From Cercis canadensis (lineage: Eukaryota; Streptophyta; Magnoliopsida; Fabales; Fabaceae), in assembly GCA_003255065.1 (NCBI GenBank), contig QAOA01000890.1, forward strand, positions 122,297 to 186,296: 64,000 nucleotides of DNA, written 5' to 3'. The position numbers and the translations under genes are program-made. Positions 3,359 to 59,347 of the stretch are shown piece by piece (positions within the stretch are counted from its first letter, which is position 1; every line of letters begins with the position of its first letter). Below the pieces are notes generated by a model. It searched no databases. It saw only the letters and a program-made list of their open reading frames with translations, and was not told the origin of the DNA.

Positions 3359-3488
3359 TTAATTTATAAATAAAAACCTACCCAAAACTTATTATTGATN
3401 TTAACACTTGATTCAACCTAATTTTTGAAAACATATTCCAAAAAACTAGATCTTGATGCAAAAGACTTTTAAATAACATTATTATTAT

Positions 3489-4045
3489 GCTTAATTGTAA
3501 TTTTGGTCTTCCTATTTTAATAACTTGAACTTTTTGGTCTCCTTTCTTTAAAAATGAACTATTGAGTCCCTCTATATTCATAAAATGTACAATTTTGGTC
3601 TTTTTGTCTTTAAGCTAAAATTTTTAGGTTTATTTCAAGGTGTAAAGTTCTTTGATTCATAGTCTCACTGTTAGGATTGNCAGATTGAAGAATTACGTCT
3701 TGTGAACCTCATCGCAAAATTTCAACTCGATCTAACGGTAAATGAGCCTAGATCTTCAGTTAGATGAAAACTTATGGTTTTGATATTTTGGGTTGAGTCC
3801 CACCGTTAGATCAAAGTGAAATTTAGTGGGGAGGTTTACAAGACGTAGCTCTTCGATATGAACGGTGAGATTATGAATCAGAGAACTTTACACATTGAAA
3901 TAAACTTAAGAATTTTGACTTAAAGACAAAATGACCAAAATTGTACATTTTATAAATATAGAGGGACTAAATAGTTTATTTTTAAAGAATGGGGACCAAA
4001 AAATTCAAGTTGTTAAAATAAAATGACCAAAATTGTAATTAAGTC
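3489..4045. mobile_element. Palindromic Mutator-type MITE, family B copy 1
   Basis: About 555 bp forms an inverted repeat over its whole length, starting TTAATTGTAATTTTGGTC and ending with the reverse complement. The same family occurs at 38237-38775 and 49380-49920, where 9-bp target duplications are exact. This copy is interrupted by an N at 3680 where a few bases are repeated, and its own target duplication is not clear. Confidence 0.75.
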
Positions 4046-4774
4046 TTATCTTTTTTACAATGCATTTTCCAAATTTTTTAGTGTGAAAGCCTTTGTTCCA
4101 TTGTTAATAGAACTCTATTCTTTTCGTTTTTTAAGTCTTTCGATTTACATGTGTGCAAATAAAAAGACTACAAACTAGCTCATGATATTTTTTTCTCTCT
4201 ATTTCTTTTTTTTGTTTGGTTGAAAAAAATTTAGAGTAAGCTAACGAAAGAAAATTATCACATTTTAAAATCAGGACATGCGAGAGGTTTTCGCAAATAC
4301 TATGTTTAAGTTCCAATACAAATGCATGTAAAGATCAGATTGATCATTGTTTTAACGTTATGTGGTGGCCCTTAGTAGATTTTCAAAAATTTCAATCCAA
4401 AGCAATTGACCAACCCGCAAATCATGGCCCTTGATCGATATCCTTGGATCATACAAACTACCACTCAATATCAATTATCAAACACACAGGTGAAGGAGAA
4501 GGCAAGGTTGGGAGCTTTGAAAAGTCCAATTTTTACCCTTTATTTATAGTGGAAGCAATAATAAATACCAAAATCCTTTTATACTTCAAGGCTCCCACAA
4601 GCATGCTTCCAAAAAGGGGCATGCCAATTTCTTTGCCGTCTAAGAAGAATTGGCATAAGCAATAATAGCTAGAATTCACATGACTCTTACCTGTCATTGA
4701 ATCCCTTCTTTATTTAAACCAAGCATCGTGGCCAGCATGACTGTTTCAAAGAGAGAGAGAGAGAGTGTATGTGA

Positions 4775-18194
<13,420 letters not shown>

Positions 18195-23056: not shown

Positions 23057-26000
23057 TCAGGTTAAGTACCGAGGCTTTCTGTTCCAGGATTTATTTTGCA
23101 CTTCTGACTCAACTTTCCTTACATTTTCTATAATGACTTGAATTTTTGTCGACAGTTCCTCTGTTTGCTCCTCAACATTATTCATGAAACTGAGTACTTT
23201 TTCTCGATAAGTAGCACATAGTTTATCTTGTCGCTCTAACTCCATAGTAAGTTCTTCAATTTTTTTATCTTTATCACCCTGCATGTAGAGGAAAATTCAT
23301 CATTTATCCAAAAACTGTAGAAATCAAAGATAAAGACTTAGAAAAGGGGAGTAAAAATAAAGAGGGTAATACAAAAAAGAGAAGAAAAATAATAACCCTC
23401 AAATTGATTCATATGAACTTAGCATCTAACTCCTTGCCATCAAACACTAAAAGCCCTCTGTAACCTCTTGATCCCTAACTATCATCATTACTTCCCAATT
23501 TCCAGGCATCTTACCCCTTTTTCCTACATGGAGATTTGGAGTAAAGCTTGTGTATACTTGGCTCTCTGGATTCTCAAGTTTGATTATTGCACTACTAAAA
23601 TTTAGTTTTCTTTTTTATATGTACACTGATAAAAAATAAAAAATAAATAAAAAGGGATTCAAGATGAATCAAGCTATGCTCGACAACCAAAATCAACATG
23701 AAGAACAAAAAATAGATAACAAAAGCATGAAAAAGAATTATCCCAACAAGTAGGTTAGTATGAATAATAAATACATAATGGATATTGAACTGCACTAGCA
23801 AAAAGAAAAGATTGCACTTAATTTAATAACAGACAAACTCATCATTCTCCCAGCAATCAACTGTGCTAACCATCAAACTGGAGCCTCAAAATGTATCAAA
23901 AACTATAGATCAAAATTGAAGTATATAGCCAGGGAGTGCCAGCTTCATTACTACCACCAAATCAAAACTTGGGCAAATCCCTTTTACTTCTAGAGCCTTC
24001 TAAAGCTTGATTTCTATTACAAACTTCAGATATCAGAATAAAATGGGGTGGCTAAAAAATAATTTTATTGAAACAGAACATCCTTTTGATGTGACTTAAA
24101 CTACATTAGTTTCCAGGAAGAGGTTGTTATCCGTTGTTACCGTGATAACAATTCCTAAATTTGACAGTTAATTCCGACCATTACCATCTTGTGTACTTCA
24201 TATAAGGAAGATCCTAAGATCTAGGCTTTATTAGAAAGTTTGAATAAGTCTATTTTGTAGTCTTGTAATAAGTAAGATGTGATAAAAAGTAGAACTTTTA
24301 AGTTCTTTAAGTAATTATGAGAGTACCCTTGGCTAGACTGCTGTATATGCAAAGGGCTACAGGAAAAGACCTCTACCAAAAATTCTCACTGGTATTAAAC
24401 TCATTTCTGTTCTCTCCACTGGCTCTTCTCAATTTCATTCTCTTTGTTTCCCATCATCTACCACTTCTGTATGGCTAGGTCCCAATAGTATCATGTTCTG
24501 AGTGACATACTCTGAATTCTGAAATTGGTATCAAAGCCTTGTTCTAGTCTTCAATTTCATGGAAGACTACAGGCTTTATTGCTAAGACCAGAAGCAAGCA
24601 TAACACTTGATAGTCCCTTGGCTCATTCACCTCAATAATGTAGTTTGTAAAACAAATTCCGCAAATATTGCAGTTTGGAAACGATTTCCACAAATACTGC
24701 AGTTTGGAAACGATTTCCACAAATACCATTGCTTTTAATATTTTATTATTTTCTGTAATGAGGCAAAAAGAGCTGTAGAATCTCTGTGATACTGATCACG
24801 TCATATACCATATGGCTTGACCAAGAGGGAAAGAGAAATAAAGAGAGATTACATGAAGAGGTAAAGAAAGAGAAATATGAAGAGGAGGGGGAGAGAGGAA
24901 GCAAAACATATGCCATATGGCTTGACCAAGAGGGAAAGAGAAATAAAGAGAGATTACATGAAGAGGTAAAGAAAGAGAAATATGAAGAGGAGGGGGAGAG
25001 AGGAAGCAAAATCTCTTCACATTTCTTTTTTTTTACCTCTTCACGTAATCTCTCTCTATTTATCTTTCCCTCTTGGTCAAGCCATATGGCATATGGCGTG
25101 ATCAGTGTCACAAAGATTTTGCAGCTCTTTTTGCCTTGTAATAATAAAATATTAAAACTATGGTATTTGTGAAAATAATTTCAAAACTACAGTACTTGTG
25201 GAATTTGTTTTGCAAACTACATTATTTTGGTCAATGACGGAAAAATAGAAGAGAAAGAATAACTACTCACACATACACATGGGAAAGGAGGAAAAATGTT
25301 TTCAATATATGCTTCACTCCAAAATATTAATACATGTGGTGCATGGTTTGCAAGCCTTACACCACCAATTGATGAGGAGGAAAAGAAGAAGTGGAAGATT
25401 AGAGCTGGGAAAGCCATGTATGTGTTGTCTGTCACCGTGGAGGACCCCAGTTCTTGCAGCGAATTAAGGACTTATCAACACCGAAGGAGGTCTGGGATAC
25501 CTTGGCAACACTATTCACGAGGAAGAATGATGCAAAGTTGTAACTGTTGGAAAATGAGCTCATGTCAGTGAGTCAATATTTCACCAAAGTGAAATAAAAA
25601 ATGGATTCGGAGAGTGCAATCAGTGAAGTGAGGAAACGGAGAATTATTATTCATGGATTAAATTCCAAATACCATGGAATAGTTACAGCTACTCGAGGAT
25701 GGGCCAAAGAACCAACTTTGATGGAGCTAGAAAGTATCTTGGCCAACCAAGAAGCTTTAGATAAGCAAATGTCTAAAGTTTCAATAAAAGAGGAGGATAG
25801 GGCTCTTTTTGCCAAAAAGAGAATGCCTAGAGAAGACATGACAGCTGCAAAGTCTAGCAATGAAGGTGAAAACTCGAGTAGAAGACAACAAGGTTGGCAA
25901 AGAGGCCGACGTGGGAGAGGACGAGGTCCACAGCAAGGGGGAGCTAGACAACCCCGATACAGAGATGACAGCGAAGAAAAGAAATATCGACGCAAAGATG

Positions 26001-29000
26001 ACCAGTGTTAGAAGTGTGGCAGGAAAGGCCACTTTGCACGAGATTTCCGAGCTGAAAAGGTAGAAGGTAATGCCGCTTCACTCCACAAGAATGAAAGTGA
26101 GGAAGAATGGGATTTTCAAGCATCGTTAGTTGTAGAAGAGTCTAACTAGATCATGGAGGACAACAGTGAAGAAATTACCACAGTATGCATAGACAAACCA
26201 GTAACGGAGATGACACTTGCTACGGTGAGTGACAAATCAATTAATTATGATGATGACTGGATTGTTGATTCTGGCTGTTCCAACCATATGACTGGCGACG
26301 AGGAAAAACTCTCAAACATGTCAGAGTACAAGGGAGAATGAGCCGTGATGACAGCGAACAACTCCAGGTTGCCAATTGCCCATATTGGCAAGTCGGTTAT
26401 CTTCCCTTGTTTCAGTTCACATCAGGTGCAGGTGGACCAAGTTAATCATGTACCCAGGATGAAGAAGAACCTGTTGTTAGTCTCGCAATTAACATCTTTA
26501 GGCAATTATGTGGTGTTTGGACCTAGAGACATGAAGGTGTACCGGAGCTTGAAGCCTACAAGTCCACCGCTTATGGAAGGAAGACGACTTGAGTCTGTCT
26601 ATGTAATGTCAGCACAAGAGGCGTACGTGGATAAGACAAGAAAGAATGAGACAGCAGATTTGTGGCACGCAAGGCTTGGACATATCGGCTATAATCGATT
26701 AAAGGCAATGATGAAGAAATCTATGTTAAGAGGCCTACTAAATTTAGAGATACGTGATAACATTATCTATGCAGGTTGTCAGTATGGCAAAGCTCATGAG
26801 CTACCATATGAAGAATCAAAATACAGAGCAGAGATACCATTGGAGCTGGTGCATTCGGATGTTTTTGGACCTGTGAAGCAGCCATCAATTAGCAGAAGCC
26901 GGTACATGATCACATTTATTGATGATTTCTCGAGGTCTATGTGGATAGACTTTATGAAAGAGAAGTCAGAAGCTCTAATGAAGTTCAAGGAGTTTAAAGA
27001 AAAGATTGAAACCGAAGTTGGATACAAAATATGGTGGTTGCGTACAGACAATGGAGGAGAGTATACTTCCAAGGAGTTTACTCAATATCTATAGAAATAC
27101 GGCATAAGGCGACAGTTAACCTGTCCAAATACTACACAACAAAATGGAGTCGCAAATAGAAAGAATCGACATTTGGCAAAGACGTGTAGGAGCATGTTGC
27201 ATACAAAAAATGTTCCACCATGATTCTGGGCAGAATGTATGAAAACAGCTGTTTATGTCACCAATAGGCTACCCCAAGCCAGACTTGGGTTAATTTCACC
27301 ATAAGAGAAATTATGAGGCACAAAGCCATCAGTAAGGTACTTCCGAGTATTTGGGTGTGTTTGCTATGTGTTTGTGCCGAGTCAGGAACATAGCAAATTT
27401 GACAAGAAAGCGATCCGTTGCATATTTGTTGGCTACGATAGTCAGCAAAAAGGGTGGAGATGCTGTGATCCAACAACTGGACGTTGCTATGGGTCTAGAA
27501 ATGTGGTGTTTGATGAAGCATCATCATGGTGGTCCCCGCAAGCTGTACTGTTGCCAGACTCTAAAGAAATTGAAGAGCAAATGCAAAAGCAAATGGAGGT
27601 GCAATCAAAAGACAAGGAAGTACCGCCAACACAAGGAGAAGTTGTTGATGTTGAACCATCATCAGGTCAAGACAAAGCAAGATCTTCAGATAAAGAGAAA
27701 AGTCCTTGGCAGACAGGAGTACACACTAAGTCTCCAGAGGAGGAGAGACCAAGTCAGATAGAAGAAGTAGAGGAGGAAATTCCTCAACCACAGCCGAGAA
27801 GATCTAAGAGGATTCGGAAGCCAAATCGGAAATATGCCAATACAGTGCTAGTAGAAGACAATGGTATAAAGGAGCCACGTACTTACGAAGAAGCAACTTA
27901 GTCCAAGGAATGGAGAGACGCAATGGGAGAAGAGATGAAGGTGCTAAAACAAAATGAAACTTGGGAACTAGTGCCACAACCTACCATAATAAAACCCATC
28001 TCATGTAAATGGGTGTACAAGATGAAGACTCGTCCTGATGGATCAGTAGAGAGGTACAAGGCTCGTTTAGTGGCACGAGGTTTTTCACAAAAATAGGGAC
28101 TGGACTACGATGAGACATTTAGTCCGGTGACTAAAATCACTACAGTTTGTGTTCTGCTAGCACTTGCAGCTAGTAAATCATGGAGGCTCTGGCAGATGGA
28201 TGTCAAAAATGCATTTCTGCATGGTGAATTAGATTGAGAAATATACATGGAACAGCCGAAAGGTTTTGAGAGCAAGATCACTCAGGATATGTGTGCAAGT
28301 TGAAGAAAGTATTATACAGGTTGAAACAGGCACCAAGAACATGGTACGGGAAAATAGCAGAATTTCTAATACAAAGTGGATATTCTGTGGCACCAGCAAA
28401 TTCAAGCTTGTTCACGAAGGTACAAGATGGCAAGGTAGCTACAGTACTAGTGTACGTGGATGATCTTATTATTACCGGAGATGATGAAGAGATTTGTTGA
28501 ACAAAAGGTAATCTATCTGTGCGTTTTCAAATGAAGGAGCTTGGAGAGTTAAAATATTTTCTGGGACTTGAGATTTAAAGAGCCAAGGATGGGTTATTTC
28601 TGTCTCAACAAAAATACGCTCAAGATCTATTGCAAACCAATCTCAACGCCCATGGAAATTAATGTTAAATTGTGTTCAGCAGAAGAAAAAGAATTGGAGG
28701 ATGCCACGATGTATAGGCAGCTAGTAGGTAGTTTAATCTACCTCACTTTGACTCGACCTGACATATCACATAAAGTTGGCATGGTAAGTCAATTCATGCA
28801 GAAGCCGAGAAAACCACATTTGGATGCAATTCGTCGAATTTTGAGGTATATTAAGAGGATAGTTTACAAGAAAGATGTAACATGTGAAGTCGTGGGATAT
28901 TGCGATGCTGACTATGCTGGTGACCATGACACTCGTCGTTCAACAACTGAATATATATTTACTTTGGGATTAGGAGCAGTGTCCTGGTGCAGTAAGAGAC

Positions 29001-32000
29001 AACCCACTGTGTCACTGTCAAGTACAGAAGCAGAATATAGAGCAGCAACTATGGCAGCTCAAGAATGTACGTGGCTGATGCAACTATTGCAAGATCTACA
29101 TCAACCGACCAACTATGCAGTAAAGTTATATTGTGACAATCAATCAGTAGTTCAATTAGCTGAAAATCCTGTTTTTCATGCCAGGACCAAACATGTGGAA
29201 GTACACTATCATTTTATCAGAGAAAAGGTATTGCAAGAAGACATCCAAATAAAATATATTAGAACTGAAGACCAAGTTGCAGATATATTTACCAAAAGGC
29301 TTGGTGGTTCGAAATTTGAAGAATTTAGAAGACAACTTGGTATGGCTACAAGGTCCGAAATAAAAAAATGTTGAGGGGGAGTATTGAGAAGTCACCGTTT
29401 TTTATTGTGAATAAGAGATAGCCACACAAGATAGCTATGCAGCCCACAAAGTTGACTATAAAAGGATAAGCTTTGAAGTTTTACAAGCTCTAGAAGATAA
29501 GGTAAAAGATAAGCACAAACCGAAATTCAAGTTGACAAGGAAGCTAAAAGATAAGCACAAGCCGAAATCCAAGTTGACAAGAAAGCCGAATTTTTTAACT
29601 ACATCAATATTCTAGTTTCTTCTAAAGTGGGTTTGTAATATTATGGCGCATGGTCTGCAAGTCTTTTATAGCCTAATTTAACTAATATAATATTACAAAC
29701 CCACTTGAGAAGAAACTAGAATATTGGTGCAGTCAAAAAATTCGGCTTCCTTATCAACTTGGATTTCGGCTTGTGCTTATCTTTTAGCTTCCTTGTCAAC
29801 TTGAATTTCGGCTTGTGCTTATCTTTTACCTTATCTTCTAGAGCTTGTAAAACTTCAAAGCTTATCCTTTTATAGTCAACTTTGTGGGCTGCATAGCTAT
29901 CTTGTGTGGCTATCTCTTACTGACAATAAAAAAAAGGTGACTTCTCAGTTAATTGGCCTAGTCCCTTTGTCCTTCACTATGAGTTAGAATGCTCCGTCTC
30001 TGCAATTGCCAAGATGACTTGGATCCTCAACACCAGAAAACTCGTGTGATATTATTTGTCATTGTTGTGATAAGCCTTTAGCCTACTTGTTCCTGTGTGG
30101 GTCAGTGCTTCAAGATTGTTGTGCCTAGAAGTGGCATTGTATCTCAGCGAAGGACCCATAATGGCACTTCTTGGTTAAGGATAATGGCTCATAAGCATAA
30201 AGTTTTCTCAGCTTTGAGCTTGAGTCTGAGAAATATCAGCTTTATGCTTTAGCACTTCTTTAGCTACTGTTACGTCTATCTTAATTTAGAAAAGTACTAC
30301 TAAAAAACTTACCTTATTTGTATGAAACAGATTATGTGGAAGAAAATTCCAAAGAAATGACATGGATAAGAGAGAACTCAATGGAGAGAACAAAAAGGAG
30401 TTTATTACCAAGGTGTCGGGATAAATGGCTTCTAGCCCTTTACCTCTATTTGTACAAAAGTAGAAACTAAGACTTATCCAAGTTTGCTAATAAAGCCTAG
30501 ATCTTAGCTGCTTGCTTCTACCAAGTACACAAAATTATAATGGTCAACTAAAGAATTGTGACCATAAAAGTAGTAACAAATAAAAGTTATGTACTTAGCT
30601 GAATGCTGTCTTGTTGGGTAATAAGTATTAAAGTACATAACTTTATTTGATACAGCTTTTTGGGACACTATTCATTAGTTGGCTACCGTCATTGTAGTAG
30701 AAGCGTAATCCTAAGGAGGCATTTGGTATATGAGTTGATTTTTTATTCCTGTATTCTCTATTTCTATGCTTGGTTGAAAGGTAGCATTCCTAAGAATTTG
30801 GGGTACTTTCCCCCAAAAAAAACCCTGATAAATTTAAACAGAAAAAATCCAGAATGCTTTTAAATTGAAGAATATTCTATTGTAACATATTCATATTACA
30901 ATTTCCAGCAATTATACTATATTTCTTTTTTCTTGTTTCTTCTCAGTAAGAAAATTTAAAAAAATAAATAAAATTGAAAAGATGATTTTGTTCCAAACAT
31001 CACTCTTTGGCTTCCCATCCTCAAATCATCCCCAAAAGGCTCCACTGGTTCTGTATCAGAACAACAAAAATGGCTTCAAAACCACAGATGCGGACGATGG
31101 CAATGGCAACGGCTCACCTCACTGGCCATAGAACAACTAATGGCAACGATAACTCACCTCACCGGCAATAGAACAACCAATGGTGATGGCAATGACTCAC
31201 CTCACTAGAGGAGTAGACAATGCCAGAAACAGCGAGGGCAGTGCAGCACTGGTACTCCTTCTTGAGCATCACAGTTGAGGCAGGTTGATGAGTGCTAAGG
31301 TTGGGCAAACTTGTCCTTTCACATGAGAGAAACATTCCCATGTCCATGGGAATCCAACATTCCCACCTCCTCCATAGGAATCAATTTATAGGAATCTTGG
31401 CAAAAAATAATTTCCCAGAATGCCATTTACCCAAGAATAGTTTTTTCAAAACCTGTACCAAATGTGTGGGAATTAAGTTAACATTCTTAGGAATGTGAAA
31501 CCATTCCCCATAAGATCTAGGCTTTATTAGAAAGCATGGATGTGATTGAAAGTACAAGTGATAAGGTCTTGTACTTTAGGGGGCGTTTGGTACACGGAAT
31601 TTGGAATATGAACTTGGGAATGCATCGTTTGCAACAAGTTTTGAAAAAAAAATTCCCAAGTACATGGCATTCCAAGGAATAGTGTTTGGCCAACATCCCA
31701 CAAAATCATTTCTATGGAAGGGGTGGTACTGTTGGATTCACATGGGCATTGGAATGTTCTCATGTGAAAAGATAAGTTTACCCACTTGTGTCCCTCATCT
31801 TCCTCAAACACCCAACTCCCTCGCAATACTCTATCTTTGCCTCTCCACTATCACACACAAGAAGGAGCACAGCCACCTCTGCCGCTGTCCTCGCCGTTCA
31901 TCTGCATCTCTAGTCACCACCACTAACAATCGTGCAAGGAAGAACCTAATATTTTTCTGTCTCTATTATCATCCCCTATTATTTTCTCAACGAACAAACA

Positions 32001-38041: not shown

Positions 38042-38961
38042 GGTTTAATTGTAGCGTAGGTTTTCATAGTTTTTTTTTGGTTTTTTATAGTTTAAATTTT
38101 TGTAATTAGTCTTTTCCGTGACTTTCTCTTGAAATTGATACGGTGTTAAAGTGGTATAAAAATTATTTTTTCCTCATCTTTCCTCTTGAAATAAAGTGAT
38201 AATTTTTATGTCACTTTGGTGTTACGTTAATTTTTTGGATTAATTACAATTTTGGTCCCCTTATTTTAACCACTTGAACGTTTTGGTCCTCCTTTTTTAA
38301 AAATGAACTATTGAATCCCTCTATATTTATAAAATGTACAAGTTTAGTCTATTTATCTTTAAGTCAAAATTTTTAGGTTTATTTTAAGGTGTAAAGTTCT
38401 CTGATTCATAATCTCACCGTTCAGATTGAAGAGCTACGTCTTGTGAATCTTCCCATTAAATTTCAACTTGATCTAACAGTTAATAAGCCTAAATTTTAGG
38501 TTAGATGAAAATTTATGGTTTTGGTATTTGTGTTGAGTTAGATTGAGCTCAAATTTAGTGAGGAGATTCACAAGATGTAGCCCTTCAATCTGAATGGTGA
38601 GATTATGAATCAGAGAACTTTACACCTTGAAATAAACCTAAAAATTTTGACTTAAAGATAAATGGACTAAATTTGTACATTTTATGAATATAGAGGGATT
38701 CAATAGTTCATTTTTAAAAAAGGGGACCAAAACGTTCAAGTGATTAAAATGGGGGACCAAAATTGTAATTAAACCTAATTTTTTTTATTATCACATAAAC
38801 AAATTGTTAATCATATGAACACTAAAATGACAAAGTTATAATTTAGGGTGACGGCAAAAACTCAATTAAAAAAATTTAATCATAAGAATTCTAAAAAAAA
38901 AAAAACTATAAGAACATGATTTAAAATTTGTCCATACTATAGACCTACAATACATTTAAAC
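38042..38961. mobile_element. Family C Mutator-type MITE carrying a nested MITE
   Basis: Outer element: ends GGTTTAATTGTAGCGTAGG and CTACAATACATTTAAAC, flanked by the direct repeat AAATGTTTTT (38032-38041 and 38962-38971). It is related to 11922-12383 but is split by a family B element at 38237-38775. Without the insertion its length would be about 370 bp. Confidence 0.82.
38237..38775. mobile_element. Family B Mutator-type MITE nested inside a family C copy
   Basis: A 539-bp full-length palindrome begins GGATTAATTACAATTTTG and ends with the complement. It has an exact 9-bp target duplication TAATTTTTT (38228-38236 and 38776-38784) made of the host MITE's own sequence. Relatives: 3489-4045 and 49380-49920. 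Confidence 0.9.
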
Positions 38962-46972: not shown

Positions 46973-47272
46973 ATGGTGGGGGGAAAGATCAAGAAGGATG
47001 AGGGAAAACCACGCCTTGTACAGAAGGTATATCTTTTCACAAATTAAAAGGTCAGCTTATCCTTAGAACCCTTTACTGGTTGACTCCATAGTGCAGAAAT
47101 CTGGTATAAAAAGCACCAATGTCATCCTCGAGATTGGTCCCAGTATCGATAATCTCACAAAGAAGCTTCTGGAAGCTTGAAAGTAGGTTGTTGCTGTTGA
47201 AATTGACCCATGTATGGTTCTCGAGCTGCAAAGAGGATTCCAAGGCACGCCTTATTCTACCCGCCTCCAGGT
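46973..47272 (+). pseudogene. 18S rRNA dimethylase (DIM1A/KsgA family) pseudogene fragment
   Basis: The plus strand reads MVGGKIKKDEGKPRLVQK, then KGQLILR, then (one frame over) NPLLVDSIVQKSGIKSTNVI and LEIGPSIDNLTKKLLEA, then after two stops VVAVEIDPCMVLELQRGFQG. This is the N-terminal part of the nucleolar m6,6A rRNA dimethylase, about 100 of some 350 residues. It is broken by a frameshift near 47070 and by stops just after KKLLEA (about 47180-47187), and the SAM-binding GxGTGN motif has become GPSIDN. No intron interrupts the visible stretch. It ends at CTCCAG|GTATGG; the next 400 bp belong to something else. Function lost. Confidence 0.8.
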
Positions 47273-48720: not shown

Positions 48721-49379
48721 CACAGCCCCTGACTGTCACGTATGATTCTTTTTATAATTTTTTATATGAAAATTATTTATTTATTGATGTTAACAGACAT
48801 AAGCTAATAATGAGGCCCATCTTGCAGTATTGCAACTTAATGAAAGAAAAGGGCTTAATTAATAAACAACTTTTAGGTGAGATGAACTTTGTAGAATTAA
48901 AAAGAGAATTACTTTTTTATTCATTCTCTTAAATAATTGTGAATACTAATAGTCATAGCCACTTCTAATTAATTTCAAATGTTCTCCTATATTGGCACTC
49001 TTAATTAATCTCTCAATATTATATATATAATTAACTTGTGCTAACTCACCTGTAATAAACTTCACTGCTACTTTCACTTGGGCTTCCACTCCATGCTGCT
49101 GTGAGTTCCCAATTTCTGCAAATGCATTCAAAAACAAATGTATGTGATAATTTGCTGCAACGAAATTGGCGGCAGCCAAGCCACAAAAGCAGCATTAAGT
49201 TAGTTAAGCTAGTACTCATGTAATTAAAATTGTGAACCTATGAAGGCATATTCTTCTCAAGCATTCGGAGTAGGTAATCTAACAAAACTCTGGTAAAATA
49301 AAAAACAGATAAAGAATTTGATTGAAATTCTGAGAAATCCCTATTTGAAGACTAACTCTCAAAATAATAATAATAATAA
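48721..49379. other. Low-complexity intergenic region with small unassigned ORFs
   Basis: ORFs at 48717-48932 (plus) and 48946-49179 (minus, starting MAAANFVAANYHIHLFLNAF) have no family I recognise. The second has slightly protein-like composition but no splice or promoter support. I would not call either a gene. Confidence 0.3.
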
Positions 49380-49920
49380 GGCTTAATTGTAATTTTGTTA
49401 ATTATATTTTAACAACTTGAATTTTTTAGTCCCTCTATTTTAAAAATGAACAATTTAGTCTCTCTATATTTATAAAATGTGTAATTTTAATCCTTTTGTC
49501 TTTAAATTAAAATTTCTTAGGTTTATTTCAATGTGTAAAGTTCTCTAATTCATAATCTCACAATTTAGATTAAAGAGTTATATCTTGTGAACATCCCTAC
49601 AAAATTTTAACTCAATCTAACAGAAAATGAATCTAGATCTTTGGTTAGATGAAAACTTTTAGTTTTGACATTTTGGGTTAAGTCCTACCATTGGATTAAT
49701 CTGAAATTTTATGGACAGATTCTCAAGACGTAACTGTTTAATTTGAATTGTGAGATTGTGAATTGAAAAACTTTACACCTTAAACTAAAGCTAAGAAATG
49801 ATGAAATGATCAAAACTATACATTTTATAAATATAAAATGATTAAATTATTTATTGTTAAAATAGAGGAACCAAAAAGTTTAAGTTGTTAAAATAAAAAT
49901 ATTAAAATTACAATTAAGCC
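49380..49920. mobile_element. Palindromic Mutator-type MITE, family B copy 3
   Basis: A 541-bp palindrome begins GGCTTAATTGTAATTTTG and ends with the complement (ACAATTAAGCC). The exact 9-bp target duplication is TAATAATAA (49371-49379 and 49921-49929), although the left one lies in a TAA microsatellite. Confidence 0.85.
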
Positions 49921-50069
49921 TAATAATAAAATAATTTAGAATTTAAAAATAAGATAAAGAATTTGATTGAAATACAAATACTTTAATTAGAAGTGAATTT
50001 GAAGATTGAAATTATATTATCACAAGCTAAGCCATTTTCAGTCTCTTTATCTCTCTCTTGTGTTGTGTT

Positions 50070-53512: not shown

Positions 53513-56085
53513 CCTCTTAGTTGAGTTTGAGTCTTTTAAGTGTTCTAGTCTTCAAATAGTAAGACAGAAATTTTAATTCGAGTCTACTTGCGGCTGAGAA
53601 TAATACAACTGTACAATTACTCGTAAGTCCAACTTTACTGAGAAGAGTTGTTGTTAACTTCTTTCTTCTCTGCAAAATGAATTATCAATCTCAGCACCCT
53701 CACTCTTCAATGGCTTTATCGGAGATTGTTGTCGATTCTGTTTCTTCTGATGCTCCTAGTCTCCACGACACCAAATGCTTGAAACCAAACCCAGAGGGCA
53801 AGGTATCATCATATGCATAACTTCTTTCTCATCACTCCGTTTCTCTCTATTCTAATATGCATGAATCTTTAAGTATGTAGTCTTGATGGGTTTAACGTTG
53901 ATTATACTTTTGTAGAAGCTTTATACATTCCAAGTTGTGATATCAGGAGAAAAAAACAATGCATATCTTCATATTGTATACTATACTTCCTTTTCTGCTT
54001 TGTCATTGTTCTTTGAATTTTTGGCTTGGCAATGAAGTAATTTTATTATTTTTGTATTCTGATTATTGAATTATTATACAAGCTATTGTTTGAATTTGGA
54101 TTGGCAACATTCATTGAATAAACAGATGTTTCCATGATTTCAGAGAGCTGAATCTCTAGCATATTTCACTTGCTTGACTTGTCACAATTGAATTGAATTT
54201 CCAGATATTAACTGGTGAGAAGTTGTATATTCATGCAATTTTTCTCACAATTTCTCACATTGTGGTACCTAGTTGAATATAGGCCATCCAAAAAGAAAAA
54301 ACATTTTAAATGGGTTCAATTAAATTGGGATCCTCATCAGTGAAAAACAATAAGGAGAGTTGTGGTTGATATAACATAACTCTTAGTTGATTGGGATATT
54401 GATTATGGTTCTCTGAGTAGAGAGGGAATGGAGTAGAAAAACTGAAAATGAGTAATATATGAATATAATGTAAATCTTTATACATTGTATAATTTGATTC
54501 CTTTGGCTAAAGGAAAACAATCTTTACTTTATTACAAAGCAATTCCTTTTTCTCTTTATTCCTGTTTTTCTCTATTCCATTTTTCACTTCATTGGCTTAA
54601 CACAATTGAAACTTCATGTATTAATTGATTGGTTTATTAATTATGCCTATGATCTATTTGTAACAGGGGAATGATAAAAGGGACACTCTGATACTTGCTT
54701 GCAAGACTTTGGGAGTAGTATTTGGAGGACTCTCAACATGGCCATTATATATTTTCTGTGCATTGCCATTGAAGTCTCTAACAGAAGATGACTATCTGGG
54801 CATCTATAGCATCATGTTCTGGACACTTACTCTCACTGGGGTGAAGTATGCTCTGGCTTAGCTGTTAATGCTGGTGATAATGGCGAAGGTACTATTAGAA
54901 ATGCAATGTACTATTAGCTTCATCTGTTTATTTATGAGCATTATTTTCTCCTTCTTGTGGAATTTAAATGGATTTTGAGGTGCGAATTTTCCATTATTAT
55001 GATCTCCTATACTTTATGGTAAATCATGTACAAGACTACAGAAGTGTGAAAAATATATTGGAGAAAGAACACGTGACACATGTTAGTAGATCAAGCTTTT
55101 TTAGGCATACAAGTCTATAACAAGTCATTAGTGTTAATCCTATTAAGTACCATTGACCAAATGAAAAACTCTACCTTATAGGGTTTAGATTTCAAAAGAG
55201 GCTTTTCTAGAAGGAACTTCCCTCTATTTTTCGAATTACGGGGTTCAAAAACGACACAACTTAAGGATTTTTACCCAAAGGGACCCTCAAATAAGTAAAA
55301 GTGCCTGGGAAGAGGTTTTTGCTACTTTTCGAAGCCCAAATTTGAGCTTTTTTAGAAGCTCAATTTCTTGCTTCTGCATAAACAAGTACTTGTCTGTTGT
55401 CTAGTGTCCAACATGGCATGGATTTTATATAGATTGAGAATCACGGATAGAAGTTATCCTCATTTGTCTTTATACACTGGTGTGTTTAGAATCTTGACTA
55501 TCATAGCCAATGATGAATTGCAGGTGGAACATTTGCCTTGTATTCTTTACTTTGCAGGCGTTTGAACATTGGAATCCTTCCTTCTAAACGAGGAAATTTA
55601 AACACCAGTGTTTCAGATTCAATGCCTCCTGGTGGCATTGAAAAGAAAAGTTGGCTTGCCAATTTTTTTCAAAGAAGTATTGTTGCTCGAAGGGTGTTAC
55701 TTCTCATTGCTATGTCAGGCACATGCATGATGATAGGTGATGGTATACTTACACCTGCAATTTCAGGTTTGCTTTGGAATTTATCCATTTTCTTTTACCC
55801 TCATGAAAAATAATTGGTGGCTTTTATAAATTTGAATATCTTTGATTTAACTTTGTGAAGCTCTTTTCAGTGTTGTCTGCAATGGATGGAATCAGGGCAC
55901 TATTTCCTTCTGTTACCAATAGTAAGTGCTTGAGTGAAAATAATTTTGGCATAAACTTGAAAATTTCCAAATTTGATAGTATTAAAAATACTTCTTGAAG
56001 ATTTTAATATCATTTGTTTGGCTCAGCAACATAGCGATCAGATAGGGGTCACATGGTGGATTAAGAAAGGGATAGGCCTAAGATA

Positions 56086-56757
56086 TGTTAAAGAAGGCAT
56101 GCAGCACTACCTTCTCCATTCTAGAGAAATCCTTCTCTAGAAATTTCTTCACTACAAGTTACTACATAGGAAAGTTTTAGAGTGACCTAGTGATGTCTAG
56201 AGATAGCTAGAGTTGGATGGACTCAACTCAAGACTAGAAGACTCTAGAATGTTCTAGAGTACACTAGCATGTGCTATAGAAGGTGTTGAAAAATTCTAGA
56301 ACATCCTAGAAGGTGTTGGAAGGATGTAGAAGCTTCTAGAAGATTCTGGAGCATCCTAAAACCTGGATGAAGGAACTAGACAATCCTAGAGGACTCTAGA
56401 GTCGGCTAGAAGGTTCTAGAAACCTTGAGACATGTTGTAGTTTATTCTAGAACTTTGTAGTTTATTCTACATATGCCTAGGCTAGTAGTTCCCACCTCCT
56501 CCATCACCTATAAATAGGAGTAGCTAAGCTTGTTTTGTGTGTAAGAGAGAAAATGAGGCATCTCTTTACAAGTAAGTGGTGTCTTGAGTGTGAGTTGTGA
56601 GCTTTCTTTTGAGAGTTTGTATTTCTCTTCAAATTGTGAGTGGTCTTTAAAAGTGTTGTAGTCTCTTTCATTGTGGGTATAATGCAAGTAATTTGTTTAC
56701 TTGTTTGGGTCCAATATTAGTAAGTTTAGAGTTGTGCACTCTAAATTTTTCTCAACA
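56086..56757 (+). mobile_element. Solo LTR with heat-shock-element-like cluster (fossil)
   Basis: A 672-bp LTR begins TGTTAAAG, ends CTCAACA, and has an exact 5-bp target duplication AGATA (56081-56085 and 56758-56762). No internal retroelement region is present, so it is a solo LTR left by recombination. Upstream of a TATA box (TATAAATA, 56509-56516) lie many TTCTAGAA-type motifs; 56334-56351 and 56294-56311 each have four alternating GAA/TTC units and 56409-56421 has three, the layout of plant heat-shock elements. This recalls heat-activated copia families such as ONSEN; family membership is inferred only from these motifs. It lies in intron 4 of the KUP pseudogene, same orientation. Confidence 0.85.
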
Positions 56758-56762
56758 AGATA

Positions 56763-57565
56763 TGGAGAGTGTACTCTAGAAAGAATAAGAAGGGCAGGGG
56801 GTGAGAGTATATGATGAGGTGGCAGGTTGTTATGCCACAAGGATTAGTTTGTTACGTAAATGGGAGAGGGCACTGATGCTTGGGGAGTTAGTTATAGAGG
56901 GTCTGGTGTGAGGTGAGAGGGGTATCTAGAGGATCATTCTTAGAAGGGTCGGTTGATAGCCTGGGCAGAGAAATTCTCTGAGGAGCTTCAGCTCTGGGGT
57001 AGAGGTTCAGAAGGTTCCTCTATTGTTCTCTATTTCTATTCCATAGTATAATCATTCTAGTTTATTTTTCTGGACTCTATCACGATCTTAGGTTTTTGAC
57101 AAGTAAGCTTGCGTAAGTTAAGAACTGGTAGTTGTTGCATTGCTTATAAGACTTTTTAAAAGTATGTTGAAATGTTCATCACACAACGCTCTTAAATCCT
57201 TAGGTAACTGGCTACTAGGACACAAAGATAGGGTGACAAATCTCTTCTTATTGATGCATTTTTAAATAAGAGTTAGAATTGCTTCAGGACACAAAAATCC
57301 AACATTGGAGGCAAAAATATTGTGAGAGTAAATGTTGTCTCCAAATCTGTTTTGAATTTCCGAGGCAATTCTAACACCAATTCAGACATGCTAAAGTGTT
57401 GTGAATGACATGATTCAGTATAAATAGGATATAATAATAATGTATGTTTATAGTTTACAATGCTATGCTAAATATCTTAAATCCATCAAGAGATACTTTC
57501 TGAGGTTATCATCATAAATAACACTGTGTAGGCCGAGTTTGCTAACTTTGTCATGCAATTTGCAG
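56763..57565. other. Rest of KUP intron 4; probable older repeat
   Basis: Sequence on both sides of the solo LTR (about 56030-56080 and 56763-57070) is G-rich compared with its surroundings and has no coding role in the transporter. It may be an older repeat into which the LTR element was inserted. No family recognised. Confidence 0.35.
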
Positions 57566-59347
57566 CACATGCGGAAATTCTTTCTGCAGTTGTCTTAGTC
57601 ATTTTGTTTCTGTTGCAGAGATTTGGTACATCTCGTGTGAGTTTCCTGTTTTCCCCCATCATGGTGGCATGGACCGTGACTACCCCACTTGTAGGAGTTT
57701 ACAGGGTCATACACCACTACCCAGCTGTATTTAAGGCCATATCACCACACTACATAATCCATTTCTTTATAAGTAGTGGAAAAACTGGCTGGCTTTTACT
57801 TAGTGGTATAGTCCTTGTCATTACAGGTATGTATCGTATCCTTACTGCATGTCATTGTTATAGAAAGTGGGAAACCTTTGAAGGACTGCTATCTTTCTGA
57901 GTCTAACCAGATTCATATATGGTGCTGACATTAATATATTGATTAGTTTTAAAAGTTTGATAAATTTTTGTTCCATTTGGTTTTGTTAATTCAATTTCCT
58001 GACTCCGAACAGGTTCTGAGGCAATGTTTGCTGATCTTGGTCATTTCAACCAGCGTTCCATTCAGGTTCATTACCATGAATTTGACCTATATTTTTAACT
58101 TATGCTTCTTTCTCACCTAGCAAGCTTCTTTATCTTCTCTTTGTTCAACTTCTTTCTTTTTTTGCAGATCGCTTTTTTGTTTGCAGTCTATCCATCTCTA
58201 TGTTTATTATATCATCATTGACTACAATTGTTGCCAGCCAATCACTGATATCTTCCACGTTTTCTATAATCAAGCAATCTGTTGTGCTGGATTATTTTCC
58301 TAGGGTAAAGATTGTACACACATCTTCACAAAATGAAGGACGGTTTACTCCCCAGAAGTTAACTACTTTCTCATGGTTCTTTGCGTGGCCGTCATACTTA
58401 TTTTTGGAGATGGACAAAAAATTGGAAATGCTTTTGGTATGTTGATAAAGTCCATCATTTCTTTATAGCTTTCAATATATAGTTTCAAAATTGGCTACCA
58501 TATTATCTACACTACCAAATACTTAGGGAATTATTCATGCTAATATTCTGAAGTTTCATCACTCATGCAATGTAGATGTCAAGTTTCCAACTCTTTAGTC
58601 TGTTAATGTATAAATTTAACCTTAATATATTATATTTCATTATTTTTTTTTTTTGCAGGTATTGTTATGAGTTTAGTTATGCTGATCACCAGTACACTAC
58701 TTACATTAGTGATGATTTTGATATGGAGAACTCATCCTTTGCTGGTTGCTCTATATGTTTGCATTTATTTCGTTATGGAAGGAGTTTATGTCAGTGCAGT
58801 TATGACTAAATTTGTTGAAGGTGGATGGGTTCGTTTTGCCATATCATTTATGCTTGCTGTCGTCATGTTTGGCTGGTTCTATGGAAGACAGAAAAAGATG
58901 GAATATGAGTTAGCCAACAAGATAACCTCAGAAAGACTTGAAGAGCTTTTAGCAGACCCCAAGGTTCAAAGGATTCCTGGAATATGCTTCTTTTATACAA
59001 ATATTCAAGATGGCCTCACTCATTTTCTTGAACACTACATTAAGAACATGAAATCCCTTCATCAAGTCACGATATTCACAACACTTCGCTACCTGTTGGT
59101 CCCCAAGGTTACTCTACATGAGAGGGTTGTTATCAAGAAATTGGGGCCCCAAGGGGTATATGGATGTGTGATGCAGTATGGAAGTGATATCTTCTTTGGA
59201 AGAAGCAAGTCCTGCTGGTTTTGTAGAAATAGAAAAGAAAAAGCAATAGAAAATAGAAAATGCAAGAAGCGAGTACAGAAACTTTGGATAGTTGTACTCT
59301 AAAAAAAAATGTTCTCCATTAGTTGTATATAGGGATATGCGATATAA

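Follow-up and report, generated by a model that had tools for sequence, protein, structure and literature searches.

A Putative Copia-Type Solo LTR with a Long Ladder of Heat-Shock-Element Half-Sites in an Intron of a KUP/HAK Gene Copy

Results

The LTR and its boundaries

In the 64-kb stretch of DNA analysed here (the window), we found a 672-bp LTR-like unit with TGTT...AACA ends (Table 1). Judging from its letters, the unusual point of this unit was a long ladder of heat-shock-element (HSE) half-sites. The unit was probably, although with considerable room for doubt, a remnant of a heat-responsive, ONSEN-like family of Ty1/Copia retrotransposons whose U3 promoter would have been a docking array for HSF. 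Around it, the window contained intron-containing genes for a KUP/HAK transporter, a FAR1-type protein and a serine carboxypeptidase together with Copia fragments, from which we inferred that this was plant nuclear DNA.

The unit showed the organization of a solo LTR. Namely, it had TG...CA ends with terminal inverted bases, was flanked on both sides by AGATA (target-site duplications of solo LTRs being 4-6 bp), and was adjoined by neither an internal region nor a second LTR. As expected for a solo LTR, no second copy of the 672-bp sequence was found within the window and no priming site was found downstream of its right end. Transcription was predicted to start near 56540. The identification as an LTR was read from a single copy. 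We searched for relatives in collections without plants, where the TATA region, the 5' end and the 3' end with a tRNA-Met priming site had none among viral contigs, the 3' end with the priming site had no match among prokaryotic genome contigs, and blastn of the LTR against plasmids gave no match; a literature search with the letters of the array returned nothing. It has been reported that TGTT..AACA is the commonest end pair of plant Copia LTRs (PMC11656987). The ends thus supported the Copia part of our explanation, and they only favoured the assignment of the solo LTR to this superfamily. An earlier note on this DNA had described the TG...CA ends with an exact AGATA duplication, a TATA box downstream of GAA/TTC arrays, and the position of a solo LTR in a potassium-transporter intron; we recovered all of these features at the positions given in Table 1.

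Table 1. Positions of the LTR, its sequence features and the surrounding gene copy within the window
Feature	Position	Strand	Remarks
KUP/HAK potassium-transporter gene copy, probable pseudogene	54664..59302	+	Pfam K_trans/K_trans_C pieces; lesions
KUP/HAK intron with the LTR, GTAAGT...TTGCAG, phase 1	55922..57565	+	joins FPSVTN to THAEILSAVV
Target-site duplication AGATA, left	56081..56085	.	exact match to right copy
Solo LTR, 672 bp, TGTTAAAG...CTCAACA	56086..56757	+	
Degenerate 10-bp tandem array, CTAGAAGnnT type, most of U3	56187..56425	+	autocorrelation, CTAG spacing
Second-register HSE, four units, GAAGACTCTAGAATGTTC	56237..56254	+	11/12 letters
Ladder of 26 alternating TTC/GAA half-sites, single 5-bp register	56294..56421	+	12 perfect, 9 one letter off
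Perfect four-unit HSE GAAGCTTCTAGAAGATTC (4P class)	56329..56346	+	
Perfect three-unit HSE GAAGGTTCTAGAA (3P class)	56409..56421	+	separate from the four-unit array
TATA box CTATAAATAG	56508..56517	+	~88-163 bp downstream of perfect HSEs
GTAAGT donor-like site	56572..56577	+	downstream of predicted start
GTAAGT donor-like site in U5	56720..56725	+	
Target-site duplication AGATA, right	56758..56762	.	

The tandem array and the half-site ladder

The array had the core CTAGA. Its autocorrelation reached 0.53, 0.50, 0.47 and 0.45 at lags 10, 20, 30 and 40 (about 0.15-0.33 at other lags), and its CTAG motifs were mostly spaced by 10 bp. The strongest 10-bp periodicity score of the window, near 52.0 kb, came from a poly-T run and was rejected as an array. 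The ladder scored 59 of 78 letters, while shuffles of the LTR and the rest of the window reached maxima of 41 and 40, respectively, which supported the reading as an HSF array. Further support came from the column profile together with the TATA box downstream of the perfect HSEs. By position, the letters of AGAAn were kept in 22, 22, 19, 18 and 10 of the 26 half-sites. It has been reported that HSF prefers AGAAN, with a lesser effect of positions 3 and 4 and no effect of position 5 (PMC2871787), and the conservation of the ladder, as far as its letters tell, followed this preference with a free fifth position. The repeat unit of the array was itself an ideal HSE unit. Since the ladder was one degenerate tandem repeat, its half-sites derived from a single repeat unit and were not independent evidence. 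Moreover, much of the ladder may bind HSF weakly because wheat HSEs tolerate single-letter changes at some positions only (PMC3904712).

When GAA and TTC were strictly required to alternate every 5 bp, the entire window contained one four-unit array, which was inside the LTR, and shuffles of the window gave 0.027 on average; this rarity also supported the HSF-array reading. In 3,000 dinucleotide shuffles of the LTR, its pair, triple or quadruple HSE counts were never matched, and each of 621 other 672-bp windows had at most one triple. Outside the LTR, a perfect three-unit HSE occurred only once in the window, at 47162-47174 (GAAGCTTCTGGAA). HRE-bearing LTRs are defined by at least three adjacent nGAAn motifs (3P or 4P), and the perfect four- and three-unit arrays fell within this class. 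The earlier note had counted at least two four-unit arrays and one three-unit array, and had named random controls with as many four-unit arrays as an outcome against it. The three-unit array stood and the shuffles of the LTR gave no such controls, but the four-unit count came down to one perfect site, with candidates at 56237, 56294 and 56334 matching 11 of 12 letters each. The pattern in that note was real but incomplete: the U3 array, the few CG and CHG sites and the ladder in its single register had been overlooked. Perfect five-unit HSE patterns that were found in two viral contigs were discarded as chance occurrences inside coding sequence: ORFs of one contig (L002) looked like phage capsid and prohead-protease genes, and an ORF of the other (L001) looked like a sugar-epimerase gene.

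Scarcity of CG and CHG sites

The LTR contained one CG and three CHG sites in 672 bp, compared with window medians of 7 and 13. Counts this low (CG at most 1 and CHG at most 3) occurred in three of 342 GC-matched windows, all of which overlapped the LTR, and this restriction supported the ONSEN-like reading, since the ONSEN LTR is without CG and CHG, a property proposed to hinder silencing (PMC3907296). TAG and CTA were in excess in the LTR (33 and 29 occurrences, where 9.4 and 10 would be expected in 672 bp), and CAG and CTG were scarce outside the array as well. Decay of methylated CHG sites was therefore a possible source of the CHG scarcity. On the other hand, TG and CA showed no excess (observed/expected ratios of 1.02 and 0.92), which argued against a decay of CG sites. 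The HSE letters did not depend on whether evasion or decay was the answer.

The host gene copy and other elements of the window

Exon pieces of the KUP/HAK copy matched K_trans positions 2-58, 70-114, 135-217, 287-325, 326-358 and 358-450. The LTR was in sense orientation within a 1,644-bp intron with intact splice sites, 164 bp past the donor. The copy had a premature in-frame TAG at ~54858. Near 58220, about 31 residues of chain 25mk_A, a solved structure named "Potassium transporter 5", had no counterpart and the frame changed; near 58340, the frame was broken by 1 nt. The C-terminus was truncated, being out of frame after ~59183. Because these lesions were several and independent, a pseudogene was the better reading, and the copy was probably one, although the small lesions could be errors of a draft assembly in which some single Ns stood between direct duplications. 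Namely, near-identical direct duplications flanked single Ns at 5196 (5012-5195 and 5197-5380) and at 7553 (7375-7551 and 7554-7730). These were probably draft-assembly gap artefacts, of which one fell within the gene for the serine carboxypeptidase.

A degraded Copia element at 24526-29374 had integrase fragments and a priming site for tRNA-Met that was near-perfect, TGGTATCAAAGC. Since we found no direct LTR pair for this element (~24.5-29.4 kb), it could not be used as an LTR control. Right after its 3' coding end, a long inverted repeat was seen by eye at 29380-29960, in which GCAGCCCACAAAGTTGACTATAAAAGGATAAGC recurred reverse-complemented about 450 bp on. Additionally, a repeat of about 560 bp was present at 3467-4057, 38227-38791 and 49362-49941. 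Its copies matched both directly and inverted with 73-83% identity, and it was perhaps a nearly palindromic, MITE-like foldback element.

Discussion

Proposed mechanism

We propose that recombination between the two LTRs of a Ty1/Copia-type retrotransposon would have left the solo LTR. Upon heat, class A HSF trimers would bind the ladder cooperatively with the perfect four-unit site as the core, and the filled ladder would drive transcription that starts at about 56540. The heat-driven transcript of intact relatives would be the genomic RNA for transposition. The copy in the KUP/HAK gene would yield at most a chimeric RNA that joins the donor-like site at 56572 or 56720 to the KUP exon at 57566, and such RNA could hardly encode a working transporter because the gene copy carries lesions. 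Among the Copia elements of Brassicaceae, 4P HREs have been reported to correlate with heat induction of up to ~1000-fold (PMC5059998). In the same study, none of the A. thaliana ONSEN fragments and solo LTRs was heat-responsive, which questions the heat response of our solo LTR, although HREs had been lost in those copies (PMC5059998).

Alternative explanations

It was a serious possibility, somewhat short of an even chance, that the family was once heat-responsive but that this LTR copy is old, silenced, decaying and inactive, its scarcity of CG and CHG being a scar of methylation rather than evasion. This is compatible with our explanation for the family and differs from it in the present activity of the LTR copy. 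An old silenced copy was conceivable since the excess of TAG and CTA and the scarcity of CAG and CTG, beyond the array too, are compatible with CHG-methylation decay, and the host gene had decayed as well. However, a loss of CG by decay left no trace in TG and CA, the target-site duplication was exact, and the perfect four-unit HSE persisted.

We considered it unlikely, but worth weighing, that the array arose in a Copia U3 simply by minisatellite-like expansion, with no HSF acting and an HSE likeness that is coincidental to CTAGAAG. In line with such an expansion, TRF reported short 10- and 20-bp tandem repeats, and all half-sites came from one unit in which CTAG was the best-kept core. Nevertheless, a random 10-bp unit would rarely give a perfect alternating HSE (well under 1% by our estimate), the column profile with its free fifth position would have to be fortuitous, and the array was located directly upstream of a TATA box.

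That there is no LTR, and that a TG...CA pair and a 5-bp repeat lie by chance around a regulatory tandem repeat, was very improbable. Such pairs were common, as 46 of them started within a 4-kb stretch, so TG...CA ends with a 5-bp duplication were not significant and were rejected as the sole proof of an LTR. When TGTT...AACA ends were required with the duplication, only two pairs were left in this stretch, the 672-bp LTR and a pair of 1,876 bp, and between the boundaries of the former the U3 array, the TATA box and R/U5 followed each other in the right order. Finally, it was scarcely credible that the potassium transporter had acquired the LTR as an alternative, heat-responsive promoter: the sense orientation, the intact splice sites of the intron, the two donor-like sites past the predicted start and the precedent of the ROMANIAT5 LTR controlling APUM9 (PMC5059998) were outweighed by the stop, frame breaks, missing segment and lost C-terminus of the gene, even if the small ones among these might be assembly errors. 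Of the earlier interpretation, we thus retained a solo LTR of Copia type in an intron with intact splice sites, its predicted heat-response element being strong, of the 4P class (Pietzenuk 2016, PMC5059998) and upstream of a TATA box, whereas the idea of a stress-responsive promoter for the host locus was weakened by the KUP/HAK lesions. As read from the sequence, the LTR was unlikely to serve the host gene.

Comparison with known heat-responsive systems

Our preferred reading, the HSF docking array of a heat-responsive Copia family, resembled what is known of ONSEN/ATCOPIA78 from Arabidopsis, which is also a Ty1/Copia element and has a 4P element upstream of the promoter (PMC5059998) and an LTR with hardly any CG or CHG sites (PMC3907296, PMC5059998). 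However, ONSEN has four nGAAn motifs, while the 672-bp LTR had a 10-bp tandem array with as many as 26 half-sites in phase, and the absence of CG and CHG was nearly but not fully reached in the latter owing to its one CG and three CHG sites. Membership in the ONSEN family is defined by more than 80% nucleotide identity of the reverse transcriptase (PMC5059998), and our comparison was one of LTR features, the solo LTR being without a coding region. It was plausible that the parent family was ONSEN-like in mechanism, by which no kinship to ONSEN is implied.

TERESTRA / Alesia.FAM.7, a Ty1/Copia group of Brassicaceae, similarly has a cluster of nGAAn in the LTR and is found inserted close to or within genes (PMC5059998, PMC10881000), but with four to six motifs and unlike the 10-bp array found here. 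An LTR able to confer heat-responsiveness on a neighbouring gene is known from ROMANIAT5-2 and APUM9 (PMC5059998). There, the LTR has a 3P/gap element, is the 3' one of a larger element and lies next to a functional gene, whereas the gene copy around our LTR looked broken. Many consecutive alternating 5-bp units are also found in animal heat-shock genes such as Drosophila Hsp68, where HSF binding is cooperative (PMC2871787), but this is the promoter of a cellular gene, and the ladder of the LTR belonged to a retrotransposon and was longer and more degenerate. The longest HSEs in these systems have four units in ONSEN, six in TERESTRA (PMC5059998) and eleven in Drosophila Hsp68 (PMC2871787).

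We put forward only tentatively, and with more doubt than belief, that selection in this Copia family stretched the HRE into a helical HSF ladder as long as U3, with about two dozen in-phase half-sites, while purging symmetric methylation sites. The ONSEN strategy would then have evolved independently and in a more extreme form, possibly in a different lineage of plants.

Significance

The best-known retrotransposons activated by heat are those of Brassicaceae, with four to six HSF half-sites. If our explanation is true, a family whose ladder is far longer and whose LTR has almost no CG or CHG sites would provide a second test of whether HSF capture together with the loss of methylation sites is a repeatable escape from silencing. 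Moreover, such a family would probe whether the length of the ladder determines the strength of heat induction.
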